Shown: positions 15,621-40,494, counted from the first letter of the stretch. The stretch is 51,948 nt of DNA from a virus (IMGVR_UViG_3300025112_000019:1-51948); one strand, 5' to 3'. Numbers and translations: made by a program. Notes: a model not told the origin generated them from the letters alone.

Positions 15621-16250
15621 TTAAAGTGATGTCGTGGTAGAGTTGCTGCTGCTGGTAAAGTAGACATGCTGGTAGCGAATCGTCTCGGTCAGGCTTCGGT
15701 AGTTCTTGAGCTCATGCCTGACGGCCACGCAGACCCTGACCTTCAGCTCGAGATCCTCGACCTGGTCGTCGCACCTTCTTATCTGCTCGTTGGTGATTGC
15801 CTCGAAGATGTTCGGCTTCTTGTCGTCCCTGGTGATCCTGTTGATGATCTTTTTCAAGAGCGTTCGCCTCTCCCGGACCTGGCCCAGGGTTTCGCCGTGG
15901 TCGCTACGGCTCTGCTCGATGACCTTGAGCATCGCCTCTACCAGGTCGACCTCGGCGTTGAACACAATCCCGGCCTCGATGGCCTGGGTGTACAGGGTCG
16001 CCAGGTCAGCGGTGACCCGCTGGGCCATGGTCAGCTCGGCCTGTTCACTGTACTCGCCATCTTTGTCGTATTTCCTACGGCGGGCCTTGTCCCGCAGGAC
16101 CTTGTAGGCCAGGTCGACCTCGCGGAACCTCTCAGCACTGCCACCAGGCATGTCAGGGTGCAGCTGCTTTGCCAGCCTACGGTGGGCGGTCTTGATGGTG
16201 GCGTCTGACGCGTTGCGCCTGACCCCGAGAATTTCATACAGGGTTTTCAA
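15621..16250 (-). CDS. J-domain (DnaJ-like) protein
   Basis: In 209 residues, positions 2-65 form a J domain: LYEILGVRRNASDATIK, a helix II ending in LAKQLHPDMPGG with the HPD signature at 31-33, and helix III FREVDLAYKVLRDKARRRKYD. The J domain stimulates ATP hydrolysis by host DnaK and so recruits the chaperone. The rest is helical and charged with no Gly/Phe or zinc-finger region, so this is a class III J-protein with its own targeting tail. The TTG start overlaps the primase stop as TTGA, preceded by AGAGGA. Tight coupling suggests it serves the replisome, for example by remodelling initiation complexes as lambda replication uses DnaJ/DnaK. Confidence 0.9.
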   Translation of the reverse strand: MKTLYEILGVRRNASDATIKTAHRRLAKQLHPDMPGGSAERFREVDLAYKVLRDKARRRKYDKDGEYSEQAELTMAQRVTADLATLYTQAIEAGIVFNAEVDLVEAMLKVIEQSRSDHGETLGQVRERRTLLKKIINRITRDDKKPNIFEAITNEQIRRCDDQVEDLELKVRVCVAVRHELKNYRSLTETIRYQHVYFTSSSNSTTTSL

Positions 16251-20340: not shown

Positions 20341-21162
20341 CTAAAACGGGATTTCGTCGTCAACCTCGTCACCGCCTTCCGACGGTGACTCAGCCTCGGA
20401 GTCGGCAGTCCCCTGACGCGACTCCTGCACCTTGACGATCCCGTCAAGGATTGCGGCGTGGAAATGACGGCCATCGACGTAGAGCTGCTCATCGTCGACA
20501 ATGCCCTCGGCCTTGATGTCCCAGTTGAACCAGTCACCGTCGTTGTTCGACTGAGGCACCGTGGTCAAGTGATAACGCCCACCGAACGTCGGCACCTGGC
20601 CCAAGGTACCATCAGCCTTGGTGTACCTGAGGGCTGCCATCAGGCTGACCCACTGCCGGCTCTTCTTGAGCTGGCTGCTGGTCATGCTGATCACGCCCTG
20701 TTGGGCACCATCCTTGCCCTCGACCAGGACGTAGTGGTACTTCGTCTCGACCAAGATGTTGCCGTTTGGCAGCACGTGCTTCTTGGTCTCCTCGTTGTAC
20801 GTCGTCCGGTGCTTGATGGGGTCGTCGATCTCATAGGCCTGGATGAACCCGCCGCCACTGTCACGCGGCGTCCACTCGACCTGCTTGGCGATGAACCCGC
20901 ACGGTGTGACAAAGATACCATCGTCGGAGTCTACGAGCTCCTTTGTAACCGTGTTGAAGATCATCCCCTCCTCGGCGCCCTTGATGTAGGCCCCATTCGA
21001 CTTGCTTGCCTGCGGGCTATTCGACTGCAGGATCGTCAAGAACGGGATGGCCATGTCATCGGTCGTCACGTTCTCCATGCCAGCACCGCTGTCCTCGTCG
21101 AACAGCGTGGTCGTTGCCGGCACGTTGGTCTTACCCTTTTTGGCAACAGCATTCCTTGCCAT
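20341..21162 (-). CDS. single-stranded DNA-binding-protein-like protein
   Basis: The 273-residue protein has the layout of phage SSB-like proteins. A mixed alpha/beta core begins with DMAIPFLTILQSNSPQ and includes KYHYVLVEGKDGAQQ. A low-complexity Ser/Glu linker follows, and an acidic tail ends in VDDEIPF. In E. coli SSB the tail ends DDDIPF and docks replication partners, so the tail here is strong evidence. The gene sits among replication genes. The primase-helicase ends in a near copy of this tail. The ribosome site GAGGAG lies a little far from the ATG. It would coat replication intermediates and recruit partners. Confidence 0.7.
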   Translation of the reverse strand: MARNAVAKKGKTNVPATTTLFDEDSGAGMENVTTDDMAIPFLTILQSNSPQASKSNGAYIKGAEEGMIFNTVTKELVDSDDGIFVTPCGFIAKQVEWTPRDSGGGFIQAYEIDDPIKHRTTYNEETKKHVLPNGNILVETKYHYVLVEGKDGAQQGVISMTSSQLKKSRQWVSLMAALRYTKADGTLGQVPTFGGRYHLTTVPQSNNDGDWFNWDIKAEGIVDDEQLYVDGRHFHAAILDGIVKVQESRQGTADSEAESPSEGGDEVDDEIPF

Positions 21163-21222
21163 GAGTGCATACTCCTCTATGCTTGTGGGTCGCCAGGCTC
21201 ATCCCCGCCTGACCTGGGGTTT

Positions 21223-21780
21223 TTATTCTGCCCTCTCGATCGTGGCCTTCTGGCCGATGAAGCCGTTGAACATCTCCAGCGGCACGGCCTCGCCCTTGGT
21301 GAGCTGCTCCCGCAGCCAGGCCTGCAGCGTCTGCGTGTGGACGCTTTCCTTCGCGGTGTAGTTGTACCCCTGGGCCTTGAGGTCCTCGAGCAGCTTGGCA
21401 GCCTTGGCGTCCTCATCCTTGCCGAAGTCTGTCTTGACCTGGTTTTTGATCAGGTCCCCGTGCCCGTTGTCGCGCAGCCAGGCCAGGGACTCCTCCCCCT
21501 TGGCCCCGGCCGGGATGCTGGCCCGGTAAAATGGCTTGACCTTGACCTTATTGCCGTTGCTCAGCGGCACCTCACCCATCCCAATCTCGGTCAGGGCCTC
21601 GGGCAGGTCGACCGTGCTGACCTTCTGGTGCTGGGCCTTGAGCTCCTTGACCCTGCCCTCCAGGTCCTCGATCTCGTCCTCGATCTTTGTCTGGAACTCG
21701 GCCAGGTTGGCGATCTTGGTGATGGCGTTGCCACCAACCACCTCGACGTCCTTGCTGTCTGCCTCAAAGTCGATGGTCAT
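21223..21780 (-). CDS. conserved early phage protein, coiled-coil N-terminus
   Basis: The protein has 185 residues. Residues 20-55 form a coiled coil (AEFQTKIEDEIEDLEGRVKE). A small domain follows with EVPLSNGNKVKVKPFYRASI and a segment around ESLAWLRDNGHGDLIKNQV. This pattern recurs beside SSB-like genes in marine phages, but I do not know a demonstrated function. A recombination or replication accessory role is possible. It overlaps the ThyX stop by 4 bases (ATGA). Confidence 0.65.
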   Translation of the reverse strand: MTIDFEADSKDVEVVGGNAITKIANLAEFQTKIEDEIEDLEGRVKELKAQHQKVSTVDLPEALTEIGMGEVPLSNGNKVKVKPFYRASIPAGAKGEESLAWLRDNGHGDLIKNQVKTDFGKDEDAKAAKLLEDLKAQGYNYTAKESVHTQTLQAWLREQLTKGEAVPLEMFNGFIGQKATIERAE

Positions 21781-22436
21781 TGGTCTTCTCCTATGTCACC
21801 GAACAGGATTGGTAGCCTATCCTTGAGCTTGGCCAATAGGGGCCTCATCAGGTCCTGCATCTGTGGGTGCGCCGCCTTGGCGGCGCGCAAGGTCAGAATG
21901 TGTCGCCACTCCCGAATGTTCGCCGTGACATCGATCTCCGTCTTGAGTGAGTTGGGCAGGACGGCGCGTGCCTCCTGTGGCTTGGCGTCGGCGTCAAGCA
22001 TCTGAAAGTAAAACCCTTCAGCCTCCAGCATGGCATTATGCCAGGCCCTTTGATCGATAGTCAGGATATCAGGAACTCCATCATCCCACCCAAACCATGA
22101 CGGGATGATAAAGGTGCACTCGCCCCCGAACTTGCCGTCGGCGTAGTTACAATAGCGTGTGCTCTCCTGGGCAAAGGCCGCGATCCGATGACGGACCAGC
22201 TCATGGGTGACGCCGCGGTCAGTGATGAACCGGACCCGTAGCGACTGGTGCTCGAGCATGGCGTGGTGGCCACGGCTGATGATCGACGCCACCAGCTTGT
22301 CTGCCGTGCCTGTATCGATCTTGTCCTCTGACTTGTAACAGAGGCGGGTGGACCGCTCCAGCTCCTCCATAATCCGACCGGCATTCCAATCGTTCAAGGG
22401 CGTCAGGATCTCATACGACTGGTGAATGAGCCGCAT
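21777..22436 (-). CDS. thyX: flavin-dependent thymidylate synthase
   Basis: ThyX makes dTMP from dUMP with FAD, NADPH and methylene-tetrahydrofolate. The 219-residue product from the ATG at 22436 (after GGGAGATACTGAG, overlapping the previous stop) has the ThyX signature RHRIAAFAQESTRY, matching R-H-R-x7-S, and the upstream HHAMLEHQSLRVRFITDRG. The C-terminal part has EWRHILTLRAAKAAHPQMQ. The length is normal for the family. An upstream extension to 22511 is in frame but lacks a ribosome site. A ThyA-family gene also lies at 28751-29620, so this phage has both folds; ThyX is the better candidate for true dTMP synthesis. Confidence 0.94.
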   Translation of the reverse strand: MRLIHQSYEILTPLNDWNAGRIMEELERSTRLCYKSEDKIDTGTADKLVASIISRGHHAMLEHQSLRVRFITDRGVTHELVRHRIAAFAQESTRYCNYADGKFGGECTFIIPSWFGWDDGVPDILTIDQRAWHNAMLEAEGFYFQMLDADAKPQEARAVLPNSLKTEIDVTANIREWRHILTLRAAKAAHPQMQDLMRPLLAKLKDRLPILFGDIGEDQ

Positions 22437-22437
22437 C

Positions 22438-22644
22438 TCAGTATCTCCCGTCGAGCCTGGAGACCACGTCGAGCACATGGGCCGCCTCAGGATTTTTGTT
22501 GAGTACCTCAAGTGCCTCCTCGATCTGGGCCAGCTGCTCCTTGAGGGCGTCTCGCTGTATGGTCAGCCGCTCGGTCACACTGGGCCTGGTAAGCGTGTGG
22601 CCACCCAGCATGGCAGCCTGCTTCTGGCCCTCTATCTGTGTCAT
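22438..22644 (-). CDS. 68-residue coiled-coil protein
   Basis: ATG is preceded by the common early leader (AGAGAGGAGAAG). The product has a polar N-terminus and one heptad helix (RLTIQRDALKEQLAQIEEAL). It is likely a dimerising small protein. It precedes ThyX with an overlapping stop/start. No family recognised. Confidence 0.6.
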   Translation of the reverse strand: MTQIEGQKQAAMLGGHTLTRPSVTERLTIQRDALKEQLAQIEEALEVLNKNPEAAHVLDVVSRLDGRY

Positions 22645-22658
22645 TTTTCTTCTCCTCT

Positions 22659-22973
22659 CTAAATCTCATAGATGTCAATCAGGACCGGGATGTATGTTTT
22701 CTCCTGTCGGTCCCATTTAAGCACCTGAAAGCGTCCGCTTGTCAGGTCTGACGCCATCGCCGTCGCCGTCGCCATGTAGACCGGGTCACCGATCAGAAGC
22801 AGGTAGTCGTCTGACGTGATGTCCCGCATCTTCTCCTCGAGCCTGGTCACGGTCGGGGTCGTGTCGACCAACGGGCCCTCGCCCGGTGGCAGCATGATCA
22901 CAAGGTCACCAAAGGCCTTGGCCGGTTGAATATTTTTATTGGAGACCTCCTGGGTCACGAAGACGGTTGGCAT
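22659..22973 (-). CDS. conserved early phage protein of unknown function
   Basis: This 104-residue protein begins MPTVFVTQEVSNKNIQPAK and ends with FQVLKWDRQEKTYIPVLIDI. The middle contains TPTVTRLEEKMRDITSDDYLLLIGDP. I recall this organisation in early regions of marine podovirus-like genomes, where it is conserved but uncharacterised. The gene has the AGAGAGGAGAG leader. A TTGTGG half-site lies about 45 bases upstream, near 23020, which may be a weak relative of the CACA-N6-TGTG sites. Confidence 0.65.
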   Translation of the reverse strand: MPTVFVTQEVSNKNIQPAKAFGDLVIMLPPGEGPLVDTTPTVTRLEEKMRDITSDDYLLLIGDPVYMATATAMASDLTSGRFQVLKWDRQEKTYIPVLIDIYEI

Positions 22974-24839: not shown

Positions 24840-25412
24840 CTATGCGCGGTCGATCTTCAGGATCCCATCCTCAATGAGGCGGGCACGGTAGTAGCTGAAG
24901 ATCCGCCACGGGTCCTGCTTGGTCTTGAGCTGGGCAGCAGAGCCCTGCAGCTTTTTCTTCAGCCGGTCGTATGATGGGTCGCCCTCCTTTTCCTTGAGCT
25001 CCCGGATGGCGTCGACAATGACCTTGGCTTGACGCGGCAGCTTGGCGATCACCTCATCCGTGGCCCCGTTGATCTTGAACACCTGGTTGGCGCGCTTGGG
25101 GCCGGCCTTGATCTTGACCACCTCACCTTCAGGGGTCTTGCGCTCGTATGGGTCCTTGCCGTGGAGCAGGACCGCCCGCCAAAGCTTGTCGGCTGCCGCA
25201 GTCTTGTCCTTGGAGTACCTGGCCTCCTCGCCGGTCAACTTGCGGATCTCGCCTTCCAAGGCAACCTTGGAATAGAAGTTGGTCAGGCCGGTCGGGCCAA
25301 CATGGACCGGTGTGCCTGCCATCGTGAAGGCACGGGCCCGGCTCACGGTGTCGAACTTGCACCAGTTGCCTGTCGGCATATGGGCAATGGCCTCATAGTC
25401 AAACGTCGTCAT
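24840..25412 (-). CDS. 190-residue conserved early protein of unknown function
   Basis: The start is set at the ATG at 25412, after AGAGAGGAGAGTTGAA. The product begins MTTFDYEAIAHMPTGNWCKF. It has many Lys/Arg-rich helices (EEARYSKDKTAAADKLWRAV), and the last 60 residues (PSYDRLKKKLQGSAAQLKTK, then RIFSYYRARLIEDGIL) look like a winged-helix or similar nucleic acid-binding tail. I recognise no named family. It belongs to the same unit as the two genes upstream. Confidence 0.62.
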   Translation of the reverse strand: MTTFDYEAIAHMPTGNWCKFDTVSRARAFTMAGTPVHVGPTGLTNFYSKVALEGEIRKLTGEEARYSKDKTAAADKLWRAVLLHGKDPYERKTPEGEVVKIKAGPKRANQVFKINGATDEVIAKLPRQAKVIVDAIRELKEKEGDPSYDRLKKKLQGSAAQLKTKQDPWRIFSYYRARLIEDGILKIDRA

Positions 25413-25426
25413 TTCAACTCTCCTCT

Positions 25427-25648
25427 CTATTCTGTCCGCCAAACCCGGACACCGCCTTCGACGGTGCGGGTGACGAACCTCATGTCTGGAAACAGGCGGC
25501 GGTAGTAGCCTACCACCCCCGCCATGGACTGTATGTTGCGGCCTTCAGCCAGGAAGCTGTCACCAACCTCCATGTCCTTGAACGGCCACTTGGTGTTCTT
25601 GGGCCTAGATACCGGAACACCCTTTTCGATTTTTATATCAGAAGGCAT
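25427..25648 (-). CDS. 73-residue conserved phage protein
   Basis: The product starts MPSDIKIEKGVPVSRPKNTK, then KWPFKDMEVGDSFLAEGRN, and ends with FVTRTVEGGVRVWR. The D-M-E-V-G-D-S pattern followed by a helix and the strand pair is a small domain common in phage and plasmid early genes, function unknown. ATG overlaps the previous stop by one base. Confidence 0.6.
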   Translation of the reverse strand: MPSDIKIEKGVPVSRPKNTKWPFKDMEVGDSFLAEGRNIQSMAGVVGYYRRLFPDMRFVTRTVEGGVRVWRTE

Positions 25649-26417: not shown

Positions 26418-28304
26418 TTAATTTATCTTTTTAATCTCACCCCAATTAGGCCCCAGCTCCACGTCCACCTTCAAGGGGACCTCCAGCTCCATGCAAGTCT
26501 CCATGATCTCAGCCTGCTGCCGGGCCTCAGCCTCGCTCGAAACTGTCGAGTCGAGCTCGTCGTGCAAGGTCAGGTGCAACAAGCCAGCTTTTTCGCGGTG
26601 ACACAACACCATCGCCCGCTTGATCATGTCGGCCGACGAGCCCTGGATCAACTTGTTGAGGGCCTTGAACCCGAAGGTCCGACGCAGATGCGAGTTCGGC
26701 CACTGACGCTCGGCCTCCTCCCGGCGTAAAGGTTTCTCGTCGTCGCGCATTTCGCCGTAGGGCGGCTCCCAAAATGGAAAGTGGCATCGGCGTCCTCCTA
26801 GGGTTATGATATAGCCTCGGTCCTCAGCAACCTCAGTGCATTTTTTCGCCAGGCCCTTGACATACGGCACGGCCTCGTGATAACCGTCGTAGACGTGACC
26901 AGTCTCACCAACGGGCACCCCTGCCTGGATGAGGTTGGTCTCCATCAACGCCCGTCCCATCCCGTACGCTGCCCCAAGATTCAGGGTCTTGGCTGGCTTG
27001 CGGGTGATGCCGGCCATGTCTGCCACCAGCTGATGGTAGTCGGTGTCAGGGTTGTCGACATACCGCTGTTTAGCGACGGCTGCCCCGATCATGTTCATCA
27101 GGACCGCGTAGTGGACCGTGACACGTGGCTCCTGCTGACTGTAGTCGTTGCAGCACCAGATGCCACCCTCCTCCGGGATAAACATCCGCCGGATTATGCC
27201 GGCAATTTCTGGGTTGTTCTCGGTTGACGGCATGGTCTGGAAGCCAGACGACAGGCGACCAGAGACGGTGCCGCCCTTGTCGTCCTTGACCTGGCGAAAT
27301 TCCGGGTGGACGTGGTCGCCAACCACCTGCCTGAGGATCATGTTCTCGAGGTAGGTCTTACGGGCCTTGTGGAGCTGTCGGCCCTCAAGGACAAGTGGCG
27401 ACAGCTCGTCTGTCTGCAGCTCTAGCCACTCCTTGGGAAAGCTACCGTTGCCGGCGGCAGTCTTGTTAAACGGGATGCCCAGCCTGCTGTAGGCCCTGGC
27501 CATCGAGACATGCGAGTGGATGTCGACTTCCCCGGCGAACTTGGCGATCCTATCGAGCACCTTTTGCTCACGGGCCACGAAGTCATCTCGTGTGGCCTCT
27601 ACCTTGTCAACATCCACCCGCACCCCGGTGAAGCGCATCTCAAGCAGCACCTCAATCAGGTCGCATTCCAGCTCGAACACACGCCACAGGTCCTCGGCTA
27701 TGAGCTGTTCTTTTTGTTTCTCCCAGATCCGTAGTGGCAGCTCAGCGTCGGCCTCGCCGTAGGGCCCGACGAAGGCTGCCGGAAGCTTCCACAGTCCTGA
27801 CTTTGGGTCAACACCATAGGTAGTCGCTGCCTCGCGCAGGAGGGTCTCGTCCTTGCCCTCGCCGAGATATTCCAATGACAGCGCCTGCAGGCTGTAGGAA
27901 CGCTTGTACTCATCGATCAACGGCTCCGCTACCTGGATGTCGTAAAATGGGCCCTGTGGCCTGATGTCCAGCGTCCGCAGCCACTCTAGGTCGTAGATGA
28001 TCTTAGCGCCGACCTTAGGGGTCTTGGTGCCTAGCTGCTCCCTGGTGTATCTGATGACCTTGTCTCGGTCAAGGTTGCCGCCACCAGCGTGCGCGATGGG
28101 GTAATACCGACTACCGTGTTCCTTGGTAGCCAGGGCAATTCCAACAACCTCACCATCACCCCTGGCGCCACCTGGACCGAGGTCCATGAGGTTGGGGTCA
28201 CGTGTCTCAAGATCGACTGAGATTTCTGGCGCATTACGAAGATCCGGGTAGTCCTCAGTGGGGGACCATGTCACCGCCGGCGTGAATAAAGGCAGTTGGC
28301 TCAA
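26418..28304 (-). CDS. polA: family A DNA polymerase with 3'-5' exonuclease domain
   Basis: The replicative polymerase is 628 residues long. The N-terminal exonuclease domain shows motif I SVDLETRD (29-36), motif II GAKIIYDLEWLRTLD (99-113) and the motif III region YSLQALSLEYLGEG (137-150). The polymerase domain shows motif A CNDYSQQEPRVTVHYA, motif B RKPAKTLNLGAAYGMG and motif C LHDELD. In motif B the position equivalent to E. coli Phe762 is Leu. The start is TTG at 28304 with GAGGGAG upstream. It overlaps the deaminase gene by 50 bases in another frame, and the CACA-N6-TGTG site follows its stop. Confidence 0.95.
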   Translation of the reverse strand: MSQLPLFTPAVTWSPTEDYPDLRNAPEISVDLETRDPNLMDLGPGGARGDGEVVGIALATKEHGSRYYPIAHAGGGNLDRDKVIRYTREQLGTKTPKVGAKIIYDLEWLRTLDIRPQGPFYDIQVAEPLIDEYKRSYSLQALSLEYLGEGKDETLLREAATTYGVDPKSGLWKLPAAFVGPYGEADAELPLRIWEKQKEQLIAEDLWRVFELECDLIEVLLEMRFTGVRVDVDKVEATRDDFVAREQKVLDRIAKFAGEVDIHSHVSMARAYSRLGIPFNKTAAGNGSFPKEWLELQTDELSPLVLEGRQLHKARKTYLENMILRQVVGDHVHPEFRQVKDDKGGTVSGRLSSGFQTMPSTENNPEIAGIIRRMFIPEEGGIWCCNDYSQQEPRVTVHYAVLMNMIGAAVAKQRYVDNPDTDYHQLVADMAGITRKPAKTLNLGAAYGMGRALMETNLIQAGVPVGETGHVYDGYHEAVPYVKGLAKKCTEVAEDRGYIITLGGRRCHFPFWEPPYGEMRDDEKPLRREEAERQWPNSHLRRTFGFKALNKLIQGSSADMIKRAMVLCHREKAGLLHLTLHDELDSTVSSEAEARQQAEIMETCMELEVPLKVDVELGPNWGEIKKIN

Positions 28305-28758
28305 GGTTCAGCTCCCTCTTGCTAATGAAATGCCAGTGCCGTCCCTGGCTTGTCCACTGGGCCTTGGCCCGTTCGGTATGCTCTGAGGCGTATTCCTCTG
28401 AGAACACCATCCGCCCGGCCGACGTGGCCATCAGGGCGTTGACGCACGTGATGCATGGGCTGACGGTGCAGTAGACCGCCGACACCAGCATGTTGTTGTG
28501 GCACGAGATCAAGGCATTGATCTCAGCGTGGATGGCGCCGCACAGGTCGAGGCCCTGGCCTGGTGGCTGCTCAGCCCCTGGGCACGGGGCATCAATGCAG
28601 TGAGGCATACCAGGTGGGTTGCCATTGTGACCAGTGGCCAGGACCCTGTTTGCTGGGTCCACCAGCACGCAGCCGACCTGCCTTCGCACGCAGGTGGCAC
28701 GGGTTGCCACCTCGTGGGCAATGCGCAGGTAATATTGATCGATGCTAGGTCTATTCAT
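28255..28758 (-). CDS. dcd: dCMP deaminase
   Basis: This zinc enzyme converts dCMP to dUMP, the substrate of thymidylate synthase. In 167 residues it has the deaminase zinc signature: HAEINAL (His ligand and catalytic Glu) and SPCITCVNALMA (two Cys ligands). The N-terminal part RATCVRRQVGCVLVDPANRV and GHNGNPPGM are typical of deoxycytidylate deaminases of the T4/ComEB type. The gene overlaps the ThyA-family gene by 8 bases. With ThyX, the ThyA-family enzyme and the kinase fusion it forms a pyrimidine-nucleotide cluster. An allosteric site cannot be judged. Confidence 0.93.
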   Translation of the reverse strand: MNRPSIDQYYLRIAHEVATRATCVRRQVGCVLVDPANRVLATGHNGNPPGMPHCIDAPCPGAEQPPGQGLDLCGAIHAEINALISCHNNMLVSAVYCTVSPCITCVNALMATSAGRMVFSEEYASEHTERAKAQWTSQGRHWHFISKRELNLEPTAFIHAGGDMVPH

Positions 28759-29620
28759 CGTATAACCCCATTAGCCAGTCTTGGCCATAGGCCTCGTGAA
28801 TGTATTGACGGGCAGTGCTGCTATGTGTGCTGGACATTTGTAGGTACTCAATCAGGTCGAACGGGTCACCCTCATCATACCACCTGGTCATGTTGATTTG
28901 AACGCTTCTTGTCTCTTCATCAGTGGCCACATAGACCCCAGCGTCCAGGCAGTCGTTCACCTTCTTCCAGTTTTTCTCGTAGAGGTGGGCCGAGCCTGGG
29001 GTGATCCGCAGGTTACCAAGCTTAAGGCCGACGCCGCGATTTTTGTTGAGCAACATGGCCACCAACATGGTGATGCAGGTGAAGTTGAAGGCATCATATG
29101 GGATGCCGAGCCAGGCATCTGACGACCGCATGGTCACCAGGCAATGCAGCCGGCCACCACGGATCAGCCACTGCATCGCCACGGTGCACGGCACGTCCCT
29201 GCTGCCTGGTGGGTTGGGCCGCCAGATGGTCATGACCGCCTGCCGTGAGTTGTCGTCCAGGGCCAGGTTTTGCACCACATACATCAACTGATCGATGACC
29301 TGTGGGCCATACGCCCCGGCGAACATGTAACCATCGTCGGAAAACTGCTCGATATTTTTAGACAGATCCTGCATCTCCCGGAGCCGGTTAGAGCCAGATA
29401 GGATCCAGGCCGCCTCGCCCGCCATGAACCGATAACCCAGCTTGCGGCCAGGGTTCAGCAAGACCGGGTAGTTCATGTCGAATGTAAACGGCCGGCCGAG
29501 CAGCTCCACGGTCGCCATGTCGCGCGGCTTGGAGGCGGCGCCATGGATCATAATGTCACGGATATGCGAGATCCAGGCCTGGTCGATCAGCTCGGCACGA
29601 GCATCAATTGGAAAGTGCAT
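28751..29620 (-). CDS. ThyA-family enzyme, probably pyrimidine (dCMP) hydroxymethylase-like
   Basis: The product has 289 residues from the ATG at 29620 (after GAGGAGCTTAAAG). It keeps the thymidylate synthase framework: Glu69 in GEAAWILSGSN, catalytic Cys145 in DVPCTVAMQW, R165-S166-x-D168, and H212-x-Y214 in SAHLYEKN. The position that recognises the pyrimidine in ThyA (Asn177 of E. coli, in PFN) is Asp176 here, in LGIPYDAF. T4 dCMP hydroxymethylase has Asp at the matching position, which selects cytosine. With ThyX already present, a hydroxymethylase making 5-hydroxymethyl-dCMP is the best reading. A relaxed or dUMP-specific enzyme is possible. Confidence 0.8.
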   Translation of the reverse strand: MHFPIDARAELIDQAWISHIRDIMIHGAASKPRDMATVELLGRPFTFDMNYPVLLNPGRKLGYRFMAGEAAWILSGSNRLREMQDLSKNIEQFSDDGYMFAGAYGPQVIDQLMYVVQNLALDDNSRQAVMTIWRPNPPGSRDVPCTVAMQWLIRGGRLHCLVTMRSSDAWLGIPYDAFNFTCITMLVAMLLNKNRGVGLKLGNLRITPGSAHLYEKNWKKVNDCLDAGVYVATDEETRSVQINMTRWYDEGDPFDLIEYLQMSSTHSSTARQYIHEAYGQDWLMGLYDE

Positions 29621-30620
29621 CTTTAAGCTCCTCAGCGTAGGTTGAGACGTCACTGTGATCGAACCGCCTGGCATGCTGCGGGTGCCGGATTTTTTCATGG
29701 AAAATGTGAAGATCATGCAGCTTGCTGCTGGCGTTAGCCCCCAGGGCGATGACCTTTTTGCAGTTGTCGGCCACCTCCTTGAGCTGCTCAGCCGTGGTCC
29801 CTGGGTCATTGGCGTTCATGAGGCACATCTCCTCCTCAGGGATGTAGGCAGCATGCAGGGCCTTGGTCAGATACAGGCTGCAGCCGCCGTTCTCATAAAA
29901 CGGCCAGTTGAGAATGTGCTTCTTGCCGCTGACGTCACCTACCAAGAGGGTAGATCTGTTCCCCACCCGGCCGGCCAGGTTGCCCCAGTTGGGGTTCAGG
30001 CCTGGCTGATAGGTCAGCCCGTCCCTAACAATCTCCAGGCAAGAAAGCAAGCCCTTGACACAGGACTTAATGTCCTTCTTGGGGTGCTTGGCGATGTCAT
30101 ACTGAAACCAGTGAGTATCAGTGATGACGCCCCCCAGGGCCGCCAGCTGCTCGGCGTAGCTGCCGGTGTTGGGCCTGGTGACCGAGCCGTGAACCAGGTT
30201 CAAAAACCGGTCTGAGACCTCGGACACATCAGCATACATCTCATCCCGACTTTTCTTTAGCTCACGGTGGTTTGCCACCACCATCTCGGTTGGCGGCGCC
30301 GCAATCACGTAGATGGCCCCAAACCGCAGGAGCATTCTATGCATCATCCGGGTGGCAATGCCGATGCCCACGCCATCGCGGTAGGTGTCGGCATAGATGT
30401 TTTCGCTCGGCCACAGGCGATCGACGACCACGGTCTTGATGTCTGACAGCGCGATGGCGTTGATCAGGGCGTCGGTCTGATACCGCCACATGTCCCAGGT
30501 CGGGTCGAAGGACAGGTGCATATACTTGCTCTTGTCCTCGCCAACCTCGTCACAGATGGCCTGGGCCAGGGTGGTCTTGCCAGTGCAATCACACCCGTCA
30601 ATTACAATAATGCCGGTCAC
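29604..30620 (-). CDS. thymidylate-kinase-like domain fused to uracil-DNA-glycosylase-like domain
   Basis: The product has 338 residues with GTG start at 30620, overlapping the previous stop (TAGTG), with GGAG upstream. Residues 1-200 are a nucleoside monophosphate kinase: P-loop GCDCTGKTT (9-17) and VVVDRLWPSENIYADTYRDG (64-83), matching the thymidylate kinase DR(Y/H) motif. Residues 222-325 match the uracil-DNA glycosylase superfamily plan: STLLVGDVSG (family-4-type G-E-x-x-G, here G-D-V-S-G), WPFYENGGCSLYLTKAL, LMNAND, KKVIALGANASSKL and RHPQHARRF (the H-P-x-x-x-R-R end). The kinase could phosphorylate modified dNMPs. Whether the second domain excises, binds or modifies bases is unknown. 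Confidence 0.75.
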   Translation of the reverse strand: MTGIIVIDGCDCTGKTTLAQAICDEVGEDKSKYMHLSFDPTWDMWRYQTDALINAIALSDIKTVVVDRLWPSENIYADTYRDGVGIGIATRMMHRMLLRFGAIYVIAAPPTEMVVANHRELKKSRDEMYADVSEVSDRFLNLVHGSVTRPNTGSYAEQLAALGGVITDTHWFQYDIAKHPKKDIKSCVKGLLSCLEIVRDGLTYQPGLNPNWGNLAGRVGNRSTLLVGDVSGKKHILNWPFYENGGCSLYLTKALHAAYIPEEEMCLMNANDPGTTAEQLKEVADNCKKVIALGANASSKLHDLHIFHEKIRHPQHARRFDHSDVSTYAEELKDALSN

Positions 30621-31015
30621 TACTTCGGCTCCAGCCCCAGCAGCGGCCGCAGGTCGGGTGGCTCCCAGCCGTCAGGCTTGACCACATCGAACTCGCTGCC
30701 GCGCTTACTATCCTCGGCCGACTCAGCCCGCTCCTTCCGCATGTTAGCCCAGTGTACCTCTTGCCAGCACGCCTCGAACGGAATGCCCATCAAATACGCC
30801 GTGCCGAGGGCGACGTAGACAAGGTCGACCAGGGCATCAGCCGCACCCTCAAGGTTGCCAGCCATATGGGCAACAACCAACTCGTCAAGCTCCTCCAGAA
30901 GAAAATCTTTCCGAAAGTTGAAAAGATCGTCTTCAAGCAGCTTGGGCTCCGGGTCCAGGTTCTCGAGCCCGAACTTCGTGTGGAAATCCTTGATGTCGTA
31001 GGTAAAGCTGGTCAT
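30620..31015 (-). CDS. MazG/PRA-PH-like NTP pyrophosphatase
   Basis: The 131-residue product begins at the ATG at 31015; a longer frame to 31033 lacks a ribosome site. FLLEELDELVVAHMAGNLEG (39-57) supplies the acidic E-x-x-E segment, and AADALVDLVYVALGTAYLMG (58-77) the second metal-binding helix. EVHWANMRKER completes the all-alpha fold. Enzymes of this superfamily hydrolyse (d)NTPs to the monophosphate; T4 dCTPase is believed to be related. In this cluster it could remove unmodified dCTP or dUTP so that only a modified nucleotide is polymerised. Substrate is inferred from context. Confidence 0.8.
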   Translation of the reverse strand: MTSFTYDIKDFHTKFGLENLDPEPKLLEDDLFNFRKDFLLEELDELVVAHMAGNLEGAADALVDLVYVALGTAYLMGIPFEACWQEVHWANMRKERAESAEDSKRGSEFDVVKPDGWEPPDLRPLLGLEPK

Positions 31016-31848
31016 CTTGCGAGTTCCTTCCATTTATCAGAGCTGGTCCACGGCCCCTCGACCTTGGCCAGGGGCTTGAAGCGTCGGGCATATGAGTCGT
31101 CTGCCACCGTCAGGTGCCAGAGGTTGTTGCGGGAAAATTCTGGGTAGAGCGGTGCAAAAACCGTCGCCAGGACGTTCACGTCGTAGTAGGTCCTGAGATC
31201 GTTGAAGATGTCCATCAGGCCATCCTCCTCGAGCCGGTCCTTGTAATCCCGGATAGAGGCGAAGGTGCCCCAGTTTCCCTCGATGGCAAAGCCCAGGTCC
31301 TCGAGCAGGGCCCCCAGGGCCTCACGGGTAATCTCGCTGACGTGGTTGCCAGCAGCCCCAACCCGCTCGTCGTAGCATGGGGTAGAGATGAAGAAATCGG
31401 CCTCTAACAGCGCCAGCCGGTGCATGCCGGCCAGCATTTTCCTGGCAGCACCTGGCTCCACATGCTCAAGCACCTCAAATGAGATGACCACATTCGGGGC
31501 CTCGTCGTGTCCGTAGTCACATGGAAATTCAACCCCAGCCACGGTCGTGATCGGGAATTTCCCGGTGTGAAATGGTGACAGGTCCAGCTTTTTGTTGTAG
31601 TCGATGCCGATGTAATGCTTGGGGATCAGGCGGCTGGAGTAGAGCAGCTTGGCCAGCGGCAGCTCCTTGCCGCACCCGACATCGAGGATCACAGCGTCCT
31701 TATAACGGCTCTTCTCGTTGAGCCACCTGCAGACATGCGACCATCGGAAGCAGTGGGCAATGTAATCACGGTGGATAAACCCACGGGCCTCGGCCTGGTC
31801 GATTGACAGGTGGGTGTTGTCGATCTCCTTGCCACGGGCATTTGTCAT
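31012..31848 (-). CDS. class I SAM-dependent methyltransferase
   Basis: The product has 278 residues. Motif I is VILDVGCGKELPLAKLL, the next acidic strand is YIGIDYNKKL, and the later strands carry NVVISFEVLEHVEPG (a motif of small-molecule and metabolite methyltransferases rather than DNA adenine methylases) and ADFFISTPCYDERVG. No DPPY or IPCQ motif is visible, so it is not a standard DNA methylase. It opens the nucleotide cluster behind the AGAGAGGAGAG leader and a CACA-N6-TGTG site, so it may methylate a modified nucleotide, a protein or a cofactor. It overlaps the MazG-like gene by 4 bases. Confidence 0.85.
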   Translation of the reverse strand: MTNARGKEIDNTHLSIDQAEARGFIHRDYIAHCFRWSHVCRWLNEKSRYKDAVILDVGCGKELPLAKLLYSSRLIPKHYIGIDYNKKLDLSPFHTGKFPITTVAGVEFPCDYGHDEAPNVVISFEVLEHVEPGAARKMLAGMHRLALLEADFFISTPCYDERVGAAGNHVSEITREALGALLEDLGFAIEGNWGTFASIRDYKDRLEEDGLMDIFNDLRTYYDVNVLATVFAPLYPEFSRNNLWHLTVADDSYARRFKPLAKVEGPWTSSDKWKELAR

Positions 31849-32132: not shown

Positions 32133-33119
32133 TTAGGCGGCGTTGGCCATGTCCAAGGCGGTCTCCAGGGCCTTGGCCTTGATCTTGGCGCGTGAGCCGA
32201 ACCAGGCGGACTCGAGGGCGGTGTCGCGGTCACGGCCGGCCTCATGGTCGGCGAAGTATGTCACCGCGTTGGTCAGGCCCCAGTAGGTGCCCTTGCTCGA
32301 CTTGAGGTCGGCACCGGGTTGGGTCTCGACCAGCTCGAGGACCTTCTTGCCGGTCCGCTTGAAGCAGTCAGCCAGTGGCAACAGCTCGTTGTCATTGTTG
32401 GTCGGCGGCTCAATCAGGAGCTGGGGCTCGAACACCCGGGCGATGAACTCGTCACGCTGGTCCGAGGTGTATTTGGCGGCTGCCAACAGCTCGGCCTGCT
32501 GCTCGAAGTCGGCCAGGGCATTCTCAGCCAGGCCCAGGGCCTCCTCAGCCTCGAACTGGACATCGGCATCGAACGCCCGAACATGCGGCATCCTGAAGGC
32601 CATGCCTCCGCTCATCGCCATCTCCAAGGTGTTATTGCAGACAACCCGGACCGAGGTGAACTTGCCACCGAGACTTTCGCCCCAGACGTGCGGGCTGTGG
32701 AGAAGCAAGAAGCCATGCACCTCGTCGCCACCCGGCAGGGTAAAGCCCTTGCGGATCGACGCCAGGGCCCAGATCTTTTTGCCATCGAGCAGGGAGCCTG
32801 CGGTGTGCATCTCCATGTCGCCGGCATCCACGAACCGCTTAAAAAAGTCCATGACCTCGGAGTTCTGGGTCGGCACGAACCTGGGACCGCACGGCCCCAA
32901 GACCGCCTGGTCGGAGTCGCGGACCAACGCCCGCAAGTTGCCGGCCAGGCTGTACCTGCCCTTGTCGTCCTTGGCCCGGACCTCACGGGCGGAAACCGTC
33001 CAGTCCAACTCGGCCGCCTTGAGCATCTCCTCAGGGGTCAGGTTGGGGTCGACCTTGACACCTAAGCCATGCCAGGGAAGATCGCCCGCGTACGCCATCG
33101 TCTCAACTGCTGCTGTCAT
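32133..33119 (-). CDS. DUF932 phage/plasmid-like protein
   Basis: The 328-residue protein starts with AYAGDLPWHGLGVKVDPNLT and has YSLAGNLRALVRDSDQAVLG, GSLLDGKKIWALASIRKG and SVRVVCNNTLEMAM, the pattern of the DUF932 (phage/plasmid-like) family. The family is common in large plasmids and phages, but its molecular function is not established. The long leader (33120-33470) and a CACA-N6-TGTG site at its far end suggest a separately regulated, strongly expressed early transcript. A nested stem and a terminator follow. Confidence 0.9.
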   Translation of the reverse strand: MTAAVETMAYAGDLPWHGLGVKVDPNLTPEEMLKAAELDWTVSAREVRAKDDKGRYSLAGNLRALVRDSDQAVLGPCGPRFVPTQNSEVMDFFKRFVDAGDMEMHTAGSLLDGKKIWALASIRKGFTLPGGDEVHGFLLLHSPHVWGESLGGKFTSVRVVCNNTLEMAMSGGMAFRMPHVRAFDADVQFEAEEALGLAENALADFEQQAELLAAAKYTSDQRDEFIARVFEPQLLIEPPTNNDNELLPLADCFKRTGKKVLELVETQPGADLKSSKGTYWGLTNAVTYFADHEAGRDRDTALESAWFGSRAKIKAKALETALDMANAA

Positions 33120-37335: not shown

Positions 37336-38253
37336 CTACCCACCCGGCCGTTGTGATGCTGTGGTGTTCGGGTTTTTCATCAGGTTGTAGCCACCATAAA
37401 ACGCACCTAGGGCACCAACCCCCTGGGCAAGCGGTGATGGGGTCGGGATGAACTGGGTGTTGTAGCCTTGCTGCTGGGTACGTGTCTCATACGGGATGCC
37501 CTGTAAGGCCCCAAGAGCAAAATTTACCTGCCGGTACGGATATTCGCGCCCCTCCAGGTAGTCCTGGTAGGCAGTGTCAAGGTTCCGCTGGCCCTGCTGT
37601 TGCTGCAGCCCACCGGATTGAAGTAATTGCTGCACATCAGCCGCCCCCATGACCGAGCTGAGCTGGCCAAGCTGTGCCATCTGCGAGCCACCTGCCATCA
37701 TACGTTGGGCATTTTCATTAAAGCCTTGCCTAGCAGCCTCATAGCCAGCCATCCCGCCCTTCAGCTGGGTGTCGGCGATCGCCAGCTGGCGGTTACGGTC
37801 GATCTCAGCGTTGAGGATACCGTGACGGGCACCGCCAAATGATTGGGCCCCGACAGCGGCAGCGTTTGCCCCAATTTGCCGCTGCCCGAAGTCACGGTTC
37901 AGCTCCTCAACCGCCCGGTTGGTCACCAGCTGCTGGTACGGGTTCATGTAATTCTGAGCAGTTTCAGCATTCCACGGGGTCAAAGCACTACGTGTAGCAG
38001 CTGCCCCTTCGGTAATATACGGGGTCGCGGCGCCAACGTTGGTGCTGGTAAGGTCAAAGGCTTGTTGCTGTTGGGCAGTAATCGGCGCGACGCGAGGGCC
38101 GCCATACGGGTCAAGTGGCTGCTCTGCCAGGTGCTGGGCCTGCCCAAACAGCTCCTGGCCACCCTGTGATACCCACTCAGGGATCGAGGTGTTCTGAAGC
38201 ACACTTGACGGCGCCGCCCGCTGCTCAATATTTGTCGCGCAAAGTCCACCCAT
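37336..38253 (-). CDS. Gln-rich virion protein, conserved in marine phages
   Basis: The 305-residue protein has YGGPRVAPITAQQQQAFDL near residue 48, a helical repeat-like body rich in Gln and Ala (NRDFGQRQIGANAAAVGAQS, then GGARHGILNAEIDRNRQLA) and a C-terminus with a Gly-rich hydrophobic stretch (PLAQGVGALGAFYGGYNLM) that may insert into membrane. I recall the R-V-A-x-x-T-x-x-Q-Q-Q-A-F pattern from many uncultured marine phages near tail genes. It is probably part of the ejection machinery. Confidence 0.65.
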   Translation of the reverse strand: MGGLCATNIEQRAAPSSVLQNTSIPEWVSQGGQELFGQAQHLAEQPLDPYGGPRVAPITAQQQQAFDLTSTNVGAATPYITEGAAATRSALTPWNAETAQNYMNPYQQLVTNRAVEELNRDFGQRQIGANAAAVGAQSFGGARHGILNAEIDRNRQLAIADTQLKGGMAGYEAARQGFNENAQRMMAGGSQMAQLGQLSSVMGAADVQQLLQSGGLQQQQGQRNLDTAYQDYLEGREYPYRQVNFALGALQGIPYETRTQQQGYNTQFIPTPSPLAQGVGALGAFYGGYNLMKNPNTTASQRPGG

Positions 38254-38255
38254 GC

Positions 38256-38717
38256 CTACTCTCCAACGTAGATACTTCCAACCGGCCTAAAGCCCATGCG
38301 CCGGTAAAACTTGTCCTTTCGCTCCAGGTCCTGGTCGCCAAAGACATGGCCAACCTGAAGTGGTACTTGAAGGGTCTTGGCAGCCTCTCGAAAGCCCTCC
38401 ATCAACTGCACCGCGGCCTTGGTCTTACGACAACCTGGCACCACGTAGAACCACAGGTCACCAAGGTGGCCAGCCGTCGAATACCAGTGGCTTGAGACAT
38501 AGCCACCAATCGAGCCAACAATACAGCCCTCCTCATCTTTTGCCACCAGGGCCACACCTGACAGCACCACGTCGGCTACCACGTGTGTCGTCTTCGTCCA
38601 GTCGATCTCTGGCAGGTCCTGGCCCTCGCCGTGCATGTGCGCCAACAGGGCCAAGATGCCACTGATGTCGACAAGCGAGGCCCTGCTATAGCTGAGCGAG
38701 GCCACCAGGCATACCAC
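38256..38717 (-). CDS. GNAT acetyltransferase-like protein
   Basis: The product has about 150 residues. CRKTKAAVQLMEGFREAAKT provides the GNAT motif-A-like loop and helix (R-x-x-x-A-A/G), preceded by strand GDLWFYVVPG and followed by VGHVFGDQDLERKDKFYRRM and GFRPVGSIYVGE, the usual last elements of the fold. The start is uncertain: GTG at 38717 or 38705, both inside the end of the previous gene; sequence further upstream is an artefact of that gene's repeats. Small phage GNAT proteins sit in virion blocks of several podoviruses. Substrate unknown. Confidence 0.65.
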   Translation of the reverse strand: MVCLVASLSYSRASLVDISGILALLAHMHGEGQDLPEIDWTKTTHVVADVVLSGVALVAKDEEGCIVGSIGGYVSSHWYSTAGHLGDLWFYVVPGCRKTKAAVQLMEGFREAAKTLQVPLQVGHVFGDQDLERKDKFYRRMGFRPVGSIYVGE

Positions 38718-39114
38718 CAGGTGGCATTCCGGCCGGGTCTTGAGGCATTGGCCCAGGGGCAACAGGACCTGGCATAGGACCTGGCATAGAACCTGGCATA
38801 GGACCTGGCATAGGACCTGGCATAGGACCTGCTGGTCCCTGTGCACCCTGCACGTTGTTCTGGACCAGCATCTCAAGCACCGGGATCAGCTCCGGAAATA
38901 CCTTTGCCATCACAATCGCCAGCTCTGGCGTGATCGACTGGTCCAACAGGGCCAGCTCCTCAGGGGCCAGGCTGCCAAGGCGGGCATCCAGCTCCTGCAT
39001 GAAGTTGTCCGGCGCAGGCGTCCCAGGCATCGGGCCCGGGGCAGCCGCCATGTCCCTTGGGCCACCAGGCGCCAGGGTAGGAGGCGGACCCCCAAGTTGA
39101 TCAAACGCTGGCAT
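38686..39114 (-). CDS. Pro/Met/Gly-repeat protein of the virion block
   Basis: The 142-residue protein has ATG after GGAGGAAGTTAT. The N-terminal part is Pro-rich, the middle is a helical segment (ELDARLGSLAPEELALLDQS, then IVMAKVFPELIPVLEMLV), and the C-terminal third is a PGPM tetrapeptide repeat encoded by 12-bp tandem DNA repeats. It overlaps the GNAT gene. The composition suggests a flexible virion linker or scaffold; no family recognised. Confidence 0.6.
   Translation of the reverse strand: MPAFDQLGGPPPTLAPGGPRDMAAAPGPMPGTPAPDNFMQELDARLGSLAPEELALLDQSITPELAIVMAKVFPELIPVLEMLVQNNVQGAQGPAGPMPGPMPGPMPGSMPGPMPGPVAPGPMPQDPAGMPPGGMPGGLAQL
38764..38830. repeat. 12-bp tandem repeats encoding PGPM units
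   Basis: GGACCTGGCATA recurs head to tail about five times, with one copy altered (AGAACCTGGCAT). The repeats lie in frame in the Pro-rich gene and also give a spurious repeated frame (VLCQ) opposite the GNAT start. Copy number may vary between strains by slippage. Confidence 0.85.
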
Positions 39115-40243
39115 ATAACTTCCTCCAGTCTCGTTGAATTGGGATTAGGGTGCCGACGACAAGACAGAGTCCCTCGAACACGACCCGGACCCCCTTGCCA
39201 AGCAGGTTAGGCCTCTCACTGAAGCCCATCTGGTACATGATCTCATGACCTCTGGCCACGGCGATCGGGGCAACCAGCCTCGTCATCAATGGCGATCGCC
39301 GCATCACGTTGACCACGGTCGGGGCCATCAGGTGGTAGCCGCGTACGACCGCTGGCGACAGGCGCCTGGTAAATATCAAATCTAACCGCTGCATGGTCTT
39401 AGGCATCAGGCCCTGGGCATGCAGCTCAGTGCAGATGACGCGTCCTGTAAATGATCCAACAACAGTGCTTCCAACAAATGCCCCAATTGGGCCTCCAAGT
39501 GCAAAACCAACCACACCACCCACGCCGGCACCTGCTGCCTTTTTAAGGTTCGGCTTCTGACCCATCAACACGTCCATGACCAACGAGGCCGCAGCTGAAT
39601 AGACCCCTGATACTGCCGGGGCATGCCAGCCAGGTACAACAGGCGGCGCAGCACCGGATATTGCTGGAGTTTGAGCAGGATACGCTGCTGGCGGTCCAGG
39701 TGGTGGCAAGTTACCTAAGGTCACTGGCGGCGGAGTACCAATCCCGCCAACCGCAGCAGGTGTTAAATTTGCTTCTGCAGCGTATGGCGACCAGGTAGTT
39801 TGAGGGACTGAGGCAGCTATATTACCTCCAACCTGCCCGAGCTGCGCGGCCGGTGACTCCGGAAACAGGCTCGTGGCCGCGTTCTTTAGGTCATTCCACG
39901 ATGACTGCGCCGCCCCGGTATGGGTCGACAGGGCAAGCGGATCAGCACCAGCCTTTACAGCCTCAGCCGCCTGGTTACCGACATACTGAAGTGCGCCGCC
40001 GGCACCAATGGCCGCCAGGCTTTGCATCTCGCCAGGCACCCGCTGGGGATCATACTGTGGTGGAACGATCTGAGGGGCTGAGGCACTAAAGTCCTCGAAC
40101 TCGCGGATTGGGCCTGGGGTACGCTTAAAGAACTGCATGTCAGCACCCATGCCGCCAGGCTCACCATAGGTCAGCCAGCGCGGGTCGCTAAGCGGTGGTA
40201 CCTCAAGTGCCTCTGGGGTGTAGAGTTGATAGGTGTTTGCCAT
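39101..40243 (-). CDS. virion-associated protein with conserved C-terminal domain (paralogue of 2663-3691)
   Basis: The 380-residue protein has a low-complexity N-terminal part (Pro, Ala, Gly) with hydrophobic Gly-rich stretches (GAGVGGVVGFALGGPIGAFV) that may cross or bind a membrane. The C-terminal ~110 residues start RVICTELHAQGLMPKTMQRL and run through VRGYHLMAPTVVNVMRRSPL, matching in order the C-terminal domain of the Gly-rich protein in the packaging block. Both end with a short hydrophobic helix (VFEGLCLVVGTLI here). The domain is known to me only from phage structural regions. Confidence 0.7.
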   Translation of the reverse strand: MANTYQLYTPEALEVPPLSDPRWLTYGEPGGMGADMQFFKRTPGPIREFEDFSASAPQIVPPQYDPQRVPGEMQSLAAIGAGGALQYVGNQAAEAVKAGADPLALSTHTGAAQSSWNDLKNAATSLFPESPAAQLGQVGGNIAASVPQTTWSPYAAEANLTPAAVGGIGTPPPVTLGNLPPPGPPAAYPAQTPAISGAAPPVVPGWHAPAVSGVYSAAASLVMDVLMGQKPNLKKAAGAGVGGVVGFALGGPIGAFVGSTVVGSFTGRVICTELHAQGLMPKTMQRLDLIFTRRLSPAVVRGYHLMAPTVVNVMRRSPLMTRLVAPIAVARGHEIMYQMGFSERPNLLGKGVRVVFEGLCLVVGTLIPIQRDWRKLYASV

Positions 40244-40494
40244 CAGCCTAGTGTTCCCTTGCTCTTCATGTCCTCGATCAGGGTCCCAAGCACCGCAAGC
40301 CCCTGGGCCAGGGTGTCACCGGTAACGTCCAGGGTACGGTCAGTCGTGCCATTCGCTACAGTATACCCTGTTTGTGCCGGCTGGGACAAAAGAATGTGGA
40401 TCTGCTCAAGCCGCTCCACGAACTGCTGCATCCACACTGGGTCATACTGTGATGGGGCAATGCCAAGGGGGCCAATTGGGGCACCACTGCTCAT
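40243..40494 (-). CDS. 83-residue conserved small virion-block protein
   Basis: The product has a Pro/Gln-rich start, a helix (QQFVERLEQIHILLSQPAQ), a short Thr-rich strand (TTDRTLDVTGDTLAQGL) and a C-terminal helix (LAVLGTLIEDMKSKG). The T-T-D-R-T-x-D-x-x-x-x-x-L pattern followed by L-G-T-L-I recurs in small genes next to tail genes of marine phages. Function unknown. ATG and stop overlap neighbours by one base or none. Confidence 0.6.
   Translation of the reverse strand: MSSGAPIGPLGIAPSQYDPVWMQQFVERLEQIHILLSQPAQTGYTVANGTTDRTLDVTGDTLAQGLAVLGTLIEDMKSKGTLG

Follow-up and report, generated by a model that had tools for sequence, protein, structure and literature searches.

The window, by which we mean the whole 51,948-nucleotide stretch of viral DNA analysed (IMGVR_UViG_3300025112_000019), carries a compact gene cassette on the minus strand between 28255 and 31848. 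Its five genes are transcribed in the order methyltransferase (MT), pyrophosphatase (PP), kinase/UDG fusion, ThyA-family enzyme (HM) and dCMP deaminase, with the gene for PolA following. The initial annotation had described this five-gene cluster followed by PolA, and all of the genes were found at the coordinates given, on the minus strand, each with a match to its family. The ThyX claimed for another part of the window is also present, with a PHROG match and an NCBIfam match above cut-off. The features are as follows.

31012–31848, minus strand: MT, class I SAM-dependent methyltransferase, 278 aa (PF13489, 4.5e-8)
30620–31033, minus strand: PP, PRA-PH/MazG-type nucleoside triphosphate pyrophosphatase, 137 aa (PF01503, 5.4e-17)
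30021–30620, minus strand: kinase domain of the fusion (residues 1 to about 200), thymidylate-kinase-like P-loop fold (profile and fold match)
29604–30011, minus strand: UDG-like domain of the fusion (residues about 204–338), family-4/UdgX-like (profile and Foldseek)
28751–29620, minus strand: HM, ThyA-family predicted dCMP hydroxymethylase, 289 aa (PF00303, 2.3e-24)
28255–28758, minus strand: dCMP deaminase, 167 aa (PF00383, 3.3e-20; phrog_174, 1.1e-40)
26418–28304, minus strand: PolA, family A DNA polymerase with a 3'-5' exonuclease domain (PF00476, 8.9e-46)
21777–22511, minus strand: ThyX, flavin-dependent thymidylate synthase (phrog_85, 1.2e-40; TIGR02170, 1.1e-30)

The ThyA-family gene was present as annotated, but its start at 29809 had to be moved; homologues support the ATG at 29620, which has GAGGAG in front. 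Read from there, HM has 289 residues, as against 352 in the longer mechanical ORF, and its overlap with the kinase gene is 17 nt instead of 206 nt. Alignment with T4 gp42 and E. coli thymidylate synthase (TS) matches HM C145 and E69 to the catalytic Cys (T4 Cys148) and Glu60, and places D176 at TS-177 (T4-179), in agreement with the proposal of an Asp at the pyrimidine-recognition site. In the loci retrieved by an MT or kinase query, 104/104 distinct HM proteins have this Asp; a Thr (T146) occupies TS-147 in the window HM. In the MetaGPA paper, positions 177 and 147 ranked top for association with cytosine-modified contigs, position 177 being mostly Asp (PMC8670742).

Three residues before the catalytic Cys, HM has an Asp (D142-V-P-C145), as does T4 (Asp145) and as do ∼90/101 relatives; Asp here is the hydroxymethylase signature, Leu being found in TS (PMC6400193). 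S166 and R126 occupy the Ser169/Arg123 positions, at which Ser and Arg favour deoxyribose (PMC5175136). The top-scoring PDB relative of HM is the CMP hydroxymethylase MilA of mildiomycin biosynthesis (1.4e-21), which likewise picks cytosine through an Asp but prefers ribonucleotides through an Ala and a Lys at the Ser169/Arg123 positions. HM is homologous to T4 gp42 (hhalign probability 97.7, E 2.4e-12), yet the Trp at the TS Trp80 position, retained by gp42, is lost. The T4 Ser94-x-Tyr96 signature reads G102-A103-Y104 in HM, with the Tyr retained and Gly for Ser (or Thr), and because of this replacement we do not claim strict gp42-type membership. From these residues HM is predicted to work like a dCMP hydroxymethylase.

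PP also matches phrog_671 (3.7e-27), and its residues E47, E48, E51, D66 and D70 are invariant among six cassette members. The zinc motifs of the deaminase, HAE and PCxxC, are intact. PolA lies directly downstream of the cassette in the window and in many relatives, and ThyX is a dTMP source independent of HM. The initial annotation had given each step of the T4 route a counterpart here. For the gp42 step the counterpart is homologous, but for the gp1 and gp56 steps the enzymes are analogues, with no detectable sequence relationship. PP, a PRA-PH protein (PF01503), aligned with the T4 gp56 dCTPase (dUTPase_2) at an hhalign probability of 0.6%; the kinase aligned with gp1 at 4% and over the P-loop only, and homology of either enzyme to its T4 counterpart was rejected. 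PF21448, the gp1 family, is detected in gp1 and is absent among the 25 listed families of kinase members.

For the proposed fusion of an NMP kinase with a UDG-like domain, the window protein alone gives a weak thymidylate kinase match (0.008) and a UDG match below threshold; with relatives and a structural model, both domains are solid. Pfam finds Thymidylate_kin in 48/68 family members and PF03167 UDG in 8/68 (best 1.9e-5). The UDG domain was not visible in single-sequence searches and was revealed by family profiles, which matched YorR (6.5e-16) and the UDG TM0511 (2.4e-4). With the AF2 model (mean pLDDT 95.2), Foldseek matched T. maritima UDG (1l9g, 2.0e-5) and thymidylate kinases, and the kinase domain superimposed on P. 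aeruginosa thymidylate kinase (VIA Z 14.8, rmsd 3.4, 174 aligned). The match list of the VIA comparison was filled by the kinase domain.

The kinase domain has the P-loop (Walker A, G9..G14 K15 T), the DR motif (D67-R68) and the fold of thymidylate-kinase-like NMP kinases, and G9, D11, G14, K15, D67, R68 and Y76 are invariant in the 68 fusion members. For the UDG-like domain, the best 27 PDB matches of the profile are all UDG/UdgX chains, and its motifs VG[D/E]229, P240-F241, N269, LG294 and H313-P314 align with those of TM0511 and UdgX. These columns are well conserved (G228 66/68, D/E229 63/68, P240 68/68, F241 58/68, N269 64/68, H313 63/68, P314 68/68). The domain thus carries the family 4/UdgX motifs, and a glycosylase activity is putative. 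It keeps the positions that family-4 UDGs use for base binding and catalysis, and our guess is that it may discard wrong bases or nucleotides, e.g. hmdUMP or uracil. The two folds are fused in 58/60 non-redundant kinase-query loci, a count inflated by a query that covered both domains; the kinase of MW202510 has no UDG domain, and UDG-less versions stand alone next to HM. We found no earlier description in the literature of a kinase–UDG superfamily fusion.

MT is of the small-molecule/O-methyltransferase type (Methyltransf_23), with PF13489 matched by all 71 relatives; its ATG has GAGGAGAG in front. Its profile matches UbiG and Hen1, and its AF2 model (pLDDT 94.2) resembles small-molecule and tRNA methyltransferases in general, CmoM (Z 19.5) and ChlM (18.8) being the top structural matches. 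DNA-methyltransferase-type folds are absent from the best 50 structure matches, with which a DNA substrate is still compatible. E125-x-x-E128-H129 and H169 are invariant in the 71 sequences. In HEN1 the ExxEH motif is formed by E796, E799 and H800, with H860 as a later His (PMC1397878); the ExxEH of MT aligns with Hen1 EVIEH, and by motif spacing H169 may correspond to H860.

MT occurs in 5/50,697 phage records, each a cassette carrier. In one further locus (L088) it adjoins a T4-gp42-type HM (46% identical to gp42), without a kinase or UDG domain, and we therefore regard MT as tied to the hydroxymethyl-dCMP step. Where an HM gene is present, MT and UDG are found together more often than expected (26/6/3/11, Fisher p 2e-4, contig relatedness uncontrolled). 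MT may O-methylate the hydroxymethyl group; an open-access literature search found nothing relevant on methoxymethylcytosine in phages.

IMG/VR was searched with alignments, single-protein queries having given nearly no matches. The exact order MT-PP-kinase/UDG-HM-deaminase-PolA was found in 38/106 non-redundant contig groups, and the cassette gene order also occurs in AXL3, MW202621, PW916 and MW202510. Because identical gene order recurs in these phages and in dozens of unrelated contigs, the cassette is far beyond chance. HM-kinase pairs lacking MT and UDG are found in HTVC200P and HTVC119P, and HM-PP-deaminase sets without MT also occur. When the neighbours of ∼100 loci were clustered, MT was the sole recurrent cassette-linked enzyme of recognised function, some recurrent families being unnamed. 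The idea that the closest virion relative, Roseobacter phage CRP-901, also has the cassette was rejected: it has virion genes in common with the window, but in the 50 kb examined no match to the cassette HMMs was found.

AXL3 connects the cassette with a phenotype. Its DNA resists 35/37 restriction enzymes and is cut only by AATT and TTAA cutters (PMC7504290). In a reference panel, resistance was 94.3% for T4 (glucosyl-hmC), 81.9% for T4gt (hmC) and 8.3% for the hmdU phage SP8, and Xp12 DNA (5mC) was resistant to ∼90% of enzymes (PMC7653180). The AXL3 pattern resembles that of phages with fully modified cytosine, unlike that of hmdU phages; an hmdU genome was set aside, since most enzymes cut SP8-type DNA but not AXL3 DNA. 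AXL3 HM is ∼41% identical to the window HM, and the AXL3 resistance data cannot tell modified C from modified G. The order MT-PP-kinase/UDG-HM-deaminase in AXL3 and PW916 is identical to the window's, and ThyX is separate in AXL3; they differ from the window in that PolA is not adjacent and the PW916 kinase ORF lacks annotation.

The residues of HM, the strict synteny of the cassette, the separate ThyX and the resistance of AXL3 all point to the modified base that the initial annotation had envisaged, made along a T4-like route to hydroxymethyl-dCTP to which MT and the UDG-like domain would add further steps. Leaving the MT and UDG steps aside, we consider it probable that the cassette places a hydroxymethyl-type cytosine in place of cytosine in phage DNA. 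Gene content, residues, folds and synteny are observed directly, the resistance of AXL3 DNA is taken from the literature, and the chemistry of every step is our inference; the best reading is that hydroxymethyl-dCMP is made and then phosphorylated, with dCTP depleted. PP would hydrolyse dCTP, which both clears away the normal nucleotide and supplies the pathway with dCMP, and HM would convert dCMP and methylene-THF to 5-hydroxymethyl-dCMP. The modified dCMP would be phosphorylated by the thymidylate-kinase-like domain, the triphosphate completed by host NDP kinase and the modified nucleotide incorporated by phage PolA. Leftover dCMP would pass to dTMP via dCMP deaminase and ThyX.

The role of MT that we favour, tentatively, is methylation of the new 5-substituent (giving e.g. 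methoxymethylcytosine), before or after incorporation. The full scheme would then comprise a hydroxymethylcytosine with an O-methyl group (5-methoxymethylcytosine or a close relative) formed at the nucleotide level, absent from the literature searched, and a kinase whose built-in glycosylase domain removes unwanted pyrimidine nucleotides or bases and lets only the modified one into DNA. Taken as a whole, this is possible but rather unlikely to be right in every part.

The same core with plain 5-hydroxymethylcytosine as its product has a substantial chance of being correct. MT would then act elsewhere, on RNA, protein or a small molecule, and the UDG domain would only repair uracil in phage DNA, a role that suits the Asn kept at its uracil-recognition position. 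The T4-type steps are all covered without MT or UDG, as the natural sets lacking one or both of them illustrate, and the resistance of AXL3 is compatible. Set against this are the near exclusivity of MT to the cassette, its recurrence next to a T4-type HM and its co-occurrence with UDG.

It is unlikely that HM instead methylates dCMP to 5-methyl-dCMP, like the enzyme reported for Xp12, in a genome with 5-methylcytosine. An Asn-to-Asp change at TS-177 turns TS into a dCMP methylase (cited in PMC8670742), and the 5mC DNA of Xp12 is also largely resistant to restriction enzymes, but Asp142 in place of the TS Leu and the hydroxymethylase MilA as closest solved relative by score point to HM being a hydroxymethylase.

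We think it improbable that the modification is elaborated within DNA, by analogy with thymidine hypermodification, the kinase phosphorylating hmC in DNA, the glycosylase-fold domain swapping the phosphate for another group and MT methylating the product. An hmdU DNA kinase is known in phages (PMC7653180) and the frequent fusion, subject to the query bias noted above, would suit such coupling, but by its fold the kinase belongs with the nucleoside-monophosphate kinases, and UDG-less kinases stand alone beside HM. Moreover, the Pfam/PHROGs scan of window proteins, small ORFs left out, revealed no enzyme for amino-acid or sugar transfer; a glucosyl- or carbamoyltransferase was likewise looked for and not recognised.

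Ordinary dTMP supply by deaminase, thymidylate synthase and thymidylate kinase in series, which suits the gene names and the order dCMP to dUMP to dTMP to dTDP and is how the authors of AXL3 (PMC7504290) and PW916 annotated the genes, is hardly credible with Asp for Asn at the uracil-recognition position of every cassette member examined, dTMP already available from ThyX and AXL3 DNA withstanding almost every enzyme whose site contains G/C.

With the T4 pathway (gp42, gp1, gp56 and cd) the preferred hydroxymethyl-dCMP route shares the logic of a dCMP hydroxymethylase, a modified-dNMP kinase, a dCTP-removing pyrophosphatase, a dCMP deaminase and separate dTMP synthesis. It differs in drawing its kinase and pyrophosphatase from other families, in having one operon with dTMP from ThyX and MT and the UDG-like domain added, and in having no recognised glucosyltransferase among the proteins scanned. 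According to the MetaGPA paper, TS (Asp-177), PRA-PH, dCMP deaminase and MafB19-like deaminase domains co-occur on cytosine-modified contigs (PMC8670742), and the window deaminase matches both deaminase models. A search of that paper's main text found mention of neither a methyltransferase nor a kinase, and unlike the 5-carbamoyloxymethylcytosine system it describes, the window has no recognised carbamoyltransferase.

If the cassette does rebuild phage cytosine, it would serve phages of several environments as a compact, mobile and portable anti-restriction module, and it offers a concrete genetic explanation for the hitherto unexplained restriction resistance of AXL3. Should MT cap the hydroxymethyl group, a single methyl would be an alternative to the glucose of T4. 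MT and the glycosylase-like domain hint at a further chemical step, which may aid escape from bacterial defences. Brig1 is a UDG-superfamily enzyme that acts on modified cytosine (PMC11078745); unlike Brig1, family-4 UDGs and UdgX, the UDG-like domain of the window is fused to a nucleotide kinase within a phage base-making operon, and isolates and standard substrates are available for assaying the activity of this conserved fusion.

The initial annotation described five overlapping genes followed by PolA, with ThyX elsewhere, and all of these were located. In the window, a single virus record of 51,948 bases, the cassette occupies 28255-31848 on the minus strand, and its adjacent genes share 1 to about 50 nt:

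31012-31848, minus strand, SAM methyltransferase (MT), first in transcription order
30620-31033, minus strand, PRA-PH/MazG-type pyrophosphatase (PP), second
29604-30620, minus strand, thymidylate-kinase-like domain fused to a family-4-like UDG domain (kinase/UDG), third, GTG start
28751-29620, minus strand, ThyA-family predicted dCMP hydroxymethylase (HM), fourth, ATG start at 29620
28255-28758, minus strand, dCMP deaminase, fifth
26418-28304, PolA, after the deaminase
21777-22511, ThyX, elsewhere in the window

The 352-aa ThyA reading frame of the mechanical list is overlong, because relatives start near its residue 64 and GAGGAG precedes ATG 29620; we therefore shortened HM to that start. 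A DUF932 (TIGR03299-like) gene lies immediately upstream of the cassette (32133-33119); a relative is close to the cassette in two loci fetched for comparison, L002 and L004, and in ∼30 of 100 loci.

The cassette is conserved as a unit. Scans of IMG/VR with alignments, together with local profile searches, yielded 247 loci in 106 groups with no sampled 60-mer in common. The exact order MT-PP-kinase/UDG-HM-deaminase-PolA was found in 38 groups, and in a further 14 the order was the same with PolA absent from the fetched stretch; because the groups were drawn from three queries, these fractions are not population frequencies. Among 46 loci found with HM and having at least 3.5 kb upstream, 26 carried both MT and UDG, six MT only, three UDG only and 11 neither (Fisher p 2e-4, uncorrected for kinship). 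MT occurred in five of 50,697 phage records (four phages), all five with the cassette. Bacterial assemblies added a few copies: two loci (L251 and L253) hold all five genes in order, and a third (L254) has MT and PP swapped. A fourth (L250), from a 305 kb contig of a Methylococcaceae assembly, encodes an MT homologue at 5932-6882 of the locus, with no HM inside 6 kb of it. Actinomycetia phage DSL-LC01 (L256, 4389-8537) keeps the order kinase/UDG-HM-deaminase-PolA and has neither MT nor PP.

HM is predicted to be a dCMP hydroxymethylase. Its top-scoring solved relative is the CMP hydroxymethylase MilA (1.4e-21). Alignment with T4 gp42 and E. coli thymidylate synthase (TS) places catalytic Cys145 and Glu69, Asp176 at the cytosine-selecting position and Thr146 in place of His147 of TS; Ser166 and Arg126 match deoxyribose-preferring enzymes (PMC5175136). 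The cytosine-selecting Asp was present in all 104 distinct HM proteins from loci found with MT or kinase queries, and thus unselected for HM sequence. T4 structures and mutants define a hydroxymethylase signature of an Asp before the Cys plus Ser94-x-Tyr96 (PMC6400193). HM has the Asp (Asp142, three residues ahead of the Cys) and lacks one defining residue, as Gly102 occupies the Ser94 position. In a metagenome-wide association, TS positions 177 and 147 were the top two markers of cytosine-modified DNA, and TS, PRA-PH and dCMP deaminase domains co-occurred on modified contigs (PMC8670742). The T4-like modified-base route first proposed for the cluster is supported in its main line, although T4 gp1 (dNMP kinase) and gp56 (dCTPase) are only analogues of the cassette enzymes, with no detectable homology. 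New here are the MT, which is conserved, and the fusion of kinase and UDG.

In one comparison locus, L088, an MT 56% identical to that of the window lies directly behind an HM 46% identical to T4 gp42 and is followed by a deaminase, with kinase and UDG genes absent beside them; the same MT is therefore common to two separate HM lineages. MT is a small-molecule-type class I methyltransferase. Its profile matches UbiG and Hen1. The structures nearest to its AF2 model (pLDDT 94.2) are CmoM (Z 19.5, rmsd 3.2, 212 aligned), an enzyme that methylates the carboxyl of the C5 substituent on a tRNA uridine, and ChlM (Z 18.8). An E-x-x-E-H motif and a later His, invariant in 71 sequences, resemble conserved HEN1 active-site residues (PMC1397878). 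From these matches, structures and motif, it is reasonable to infer that MT would O-methylate the hydroxymethyl group.

In the AF2 model of kinase/UDG (pLDDT 95.2), the N-terminal domain is thymidylate-kinase-like (Z 14.8, rmsd 3.4, 174 aligned), and the top Foldseek match of the C-terminal domain is T. maritima UDG; the 27 best PDB matches of the UDG-domain profile are all UDG or UdgX chains. Motif positions are kept (D/E229 in 63, P240 in 68, F241 in 58, N269 in 64 and H313 in 63 of 68 sequences). Modelled fold, profile matches and motif together indicate that this is probably a working pyrimidine-binding domain, perhaps base-releasing. Asn269 points to recognition of the uracil type, not of cytosine, and our guess is that the domain might edit against hmdUMP or uracil.

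Stenotrophomonas phage AXL3 carries the same five genes and ThyX. Its DNA resists 35 of 37 restriction enzymes, being cut only by TasI (AATT) and Tru1I (TTAA), and its authors proposed an altered G or C (PMC7504290). In a reference panel, MluCI and MseI, which share these two sites, cut T4 DNA fully; T4, T4gt and Xp12 resisted 94%, 82% and 90% of enzymes respectively, and the hmdU phage SP8 just 8% (PMC7653180). The AXL3 pattern resembles that of the first three, unlike SP8, and so fits modified cytosine, with hmC, capped hmC and 5mC fitting equally; hmdU does not fit. The published reading of the pathway as one of dTMP supply is probably wrong.

As to existing annotation, AXL3 HM is recorded as a thymidylate synthase, and the kinase/UDG reading frame is unannotated in Pseudoxanthomonas phage PW916 (L005, 2319-3299) and in MW202621 (L004, 5241-6170).

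The window terminase and several virion proteins resemble those of Roseobacter phage CRP-901 (TerL 61%), yet no cassette was found in the 50 kb of CRP-901 read; the cassette therefore appears to be mobile between phage backbones. The likeness to CRP-901/902 covers portal, terminase and several virion proteins (4407-8586 and ∼37336-47959) and does not extend to the replication and nucleotide genes. ThyX is flanked by homologues of Pseudanabaena phage Pam3 gp32, gp33 and gp34 (20341-22973), families recurrent in ∼27-36 cassette loci. A 200-aa protein (24840-25442) that matches neither Pfam nor PHROG is found in ∼35 of 100 cassette loci, and a DnaJ-domain protein (15621-16250; PF00226, 6e-19) adjoins the primase; AXL3 encodes a DnaJ-type protein as well.
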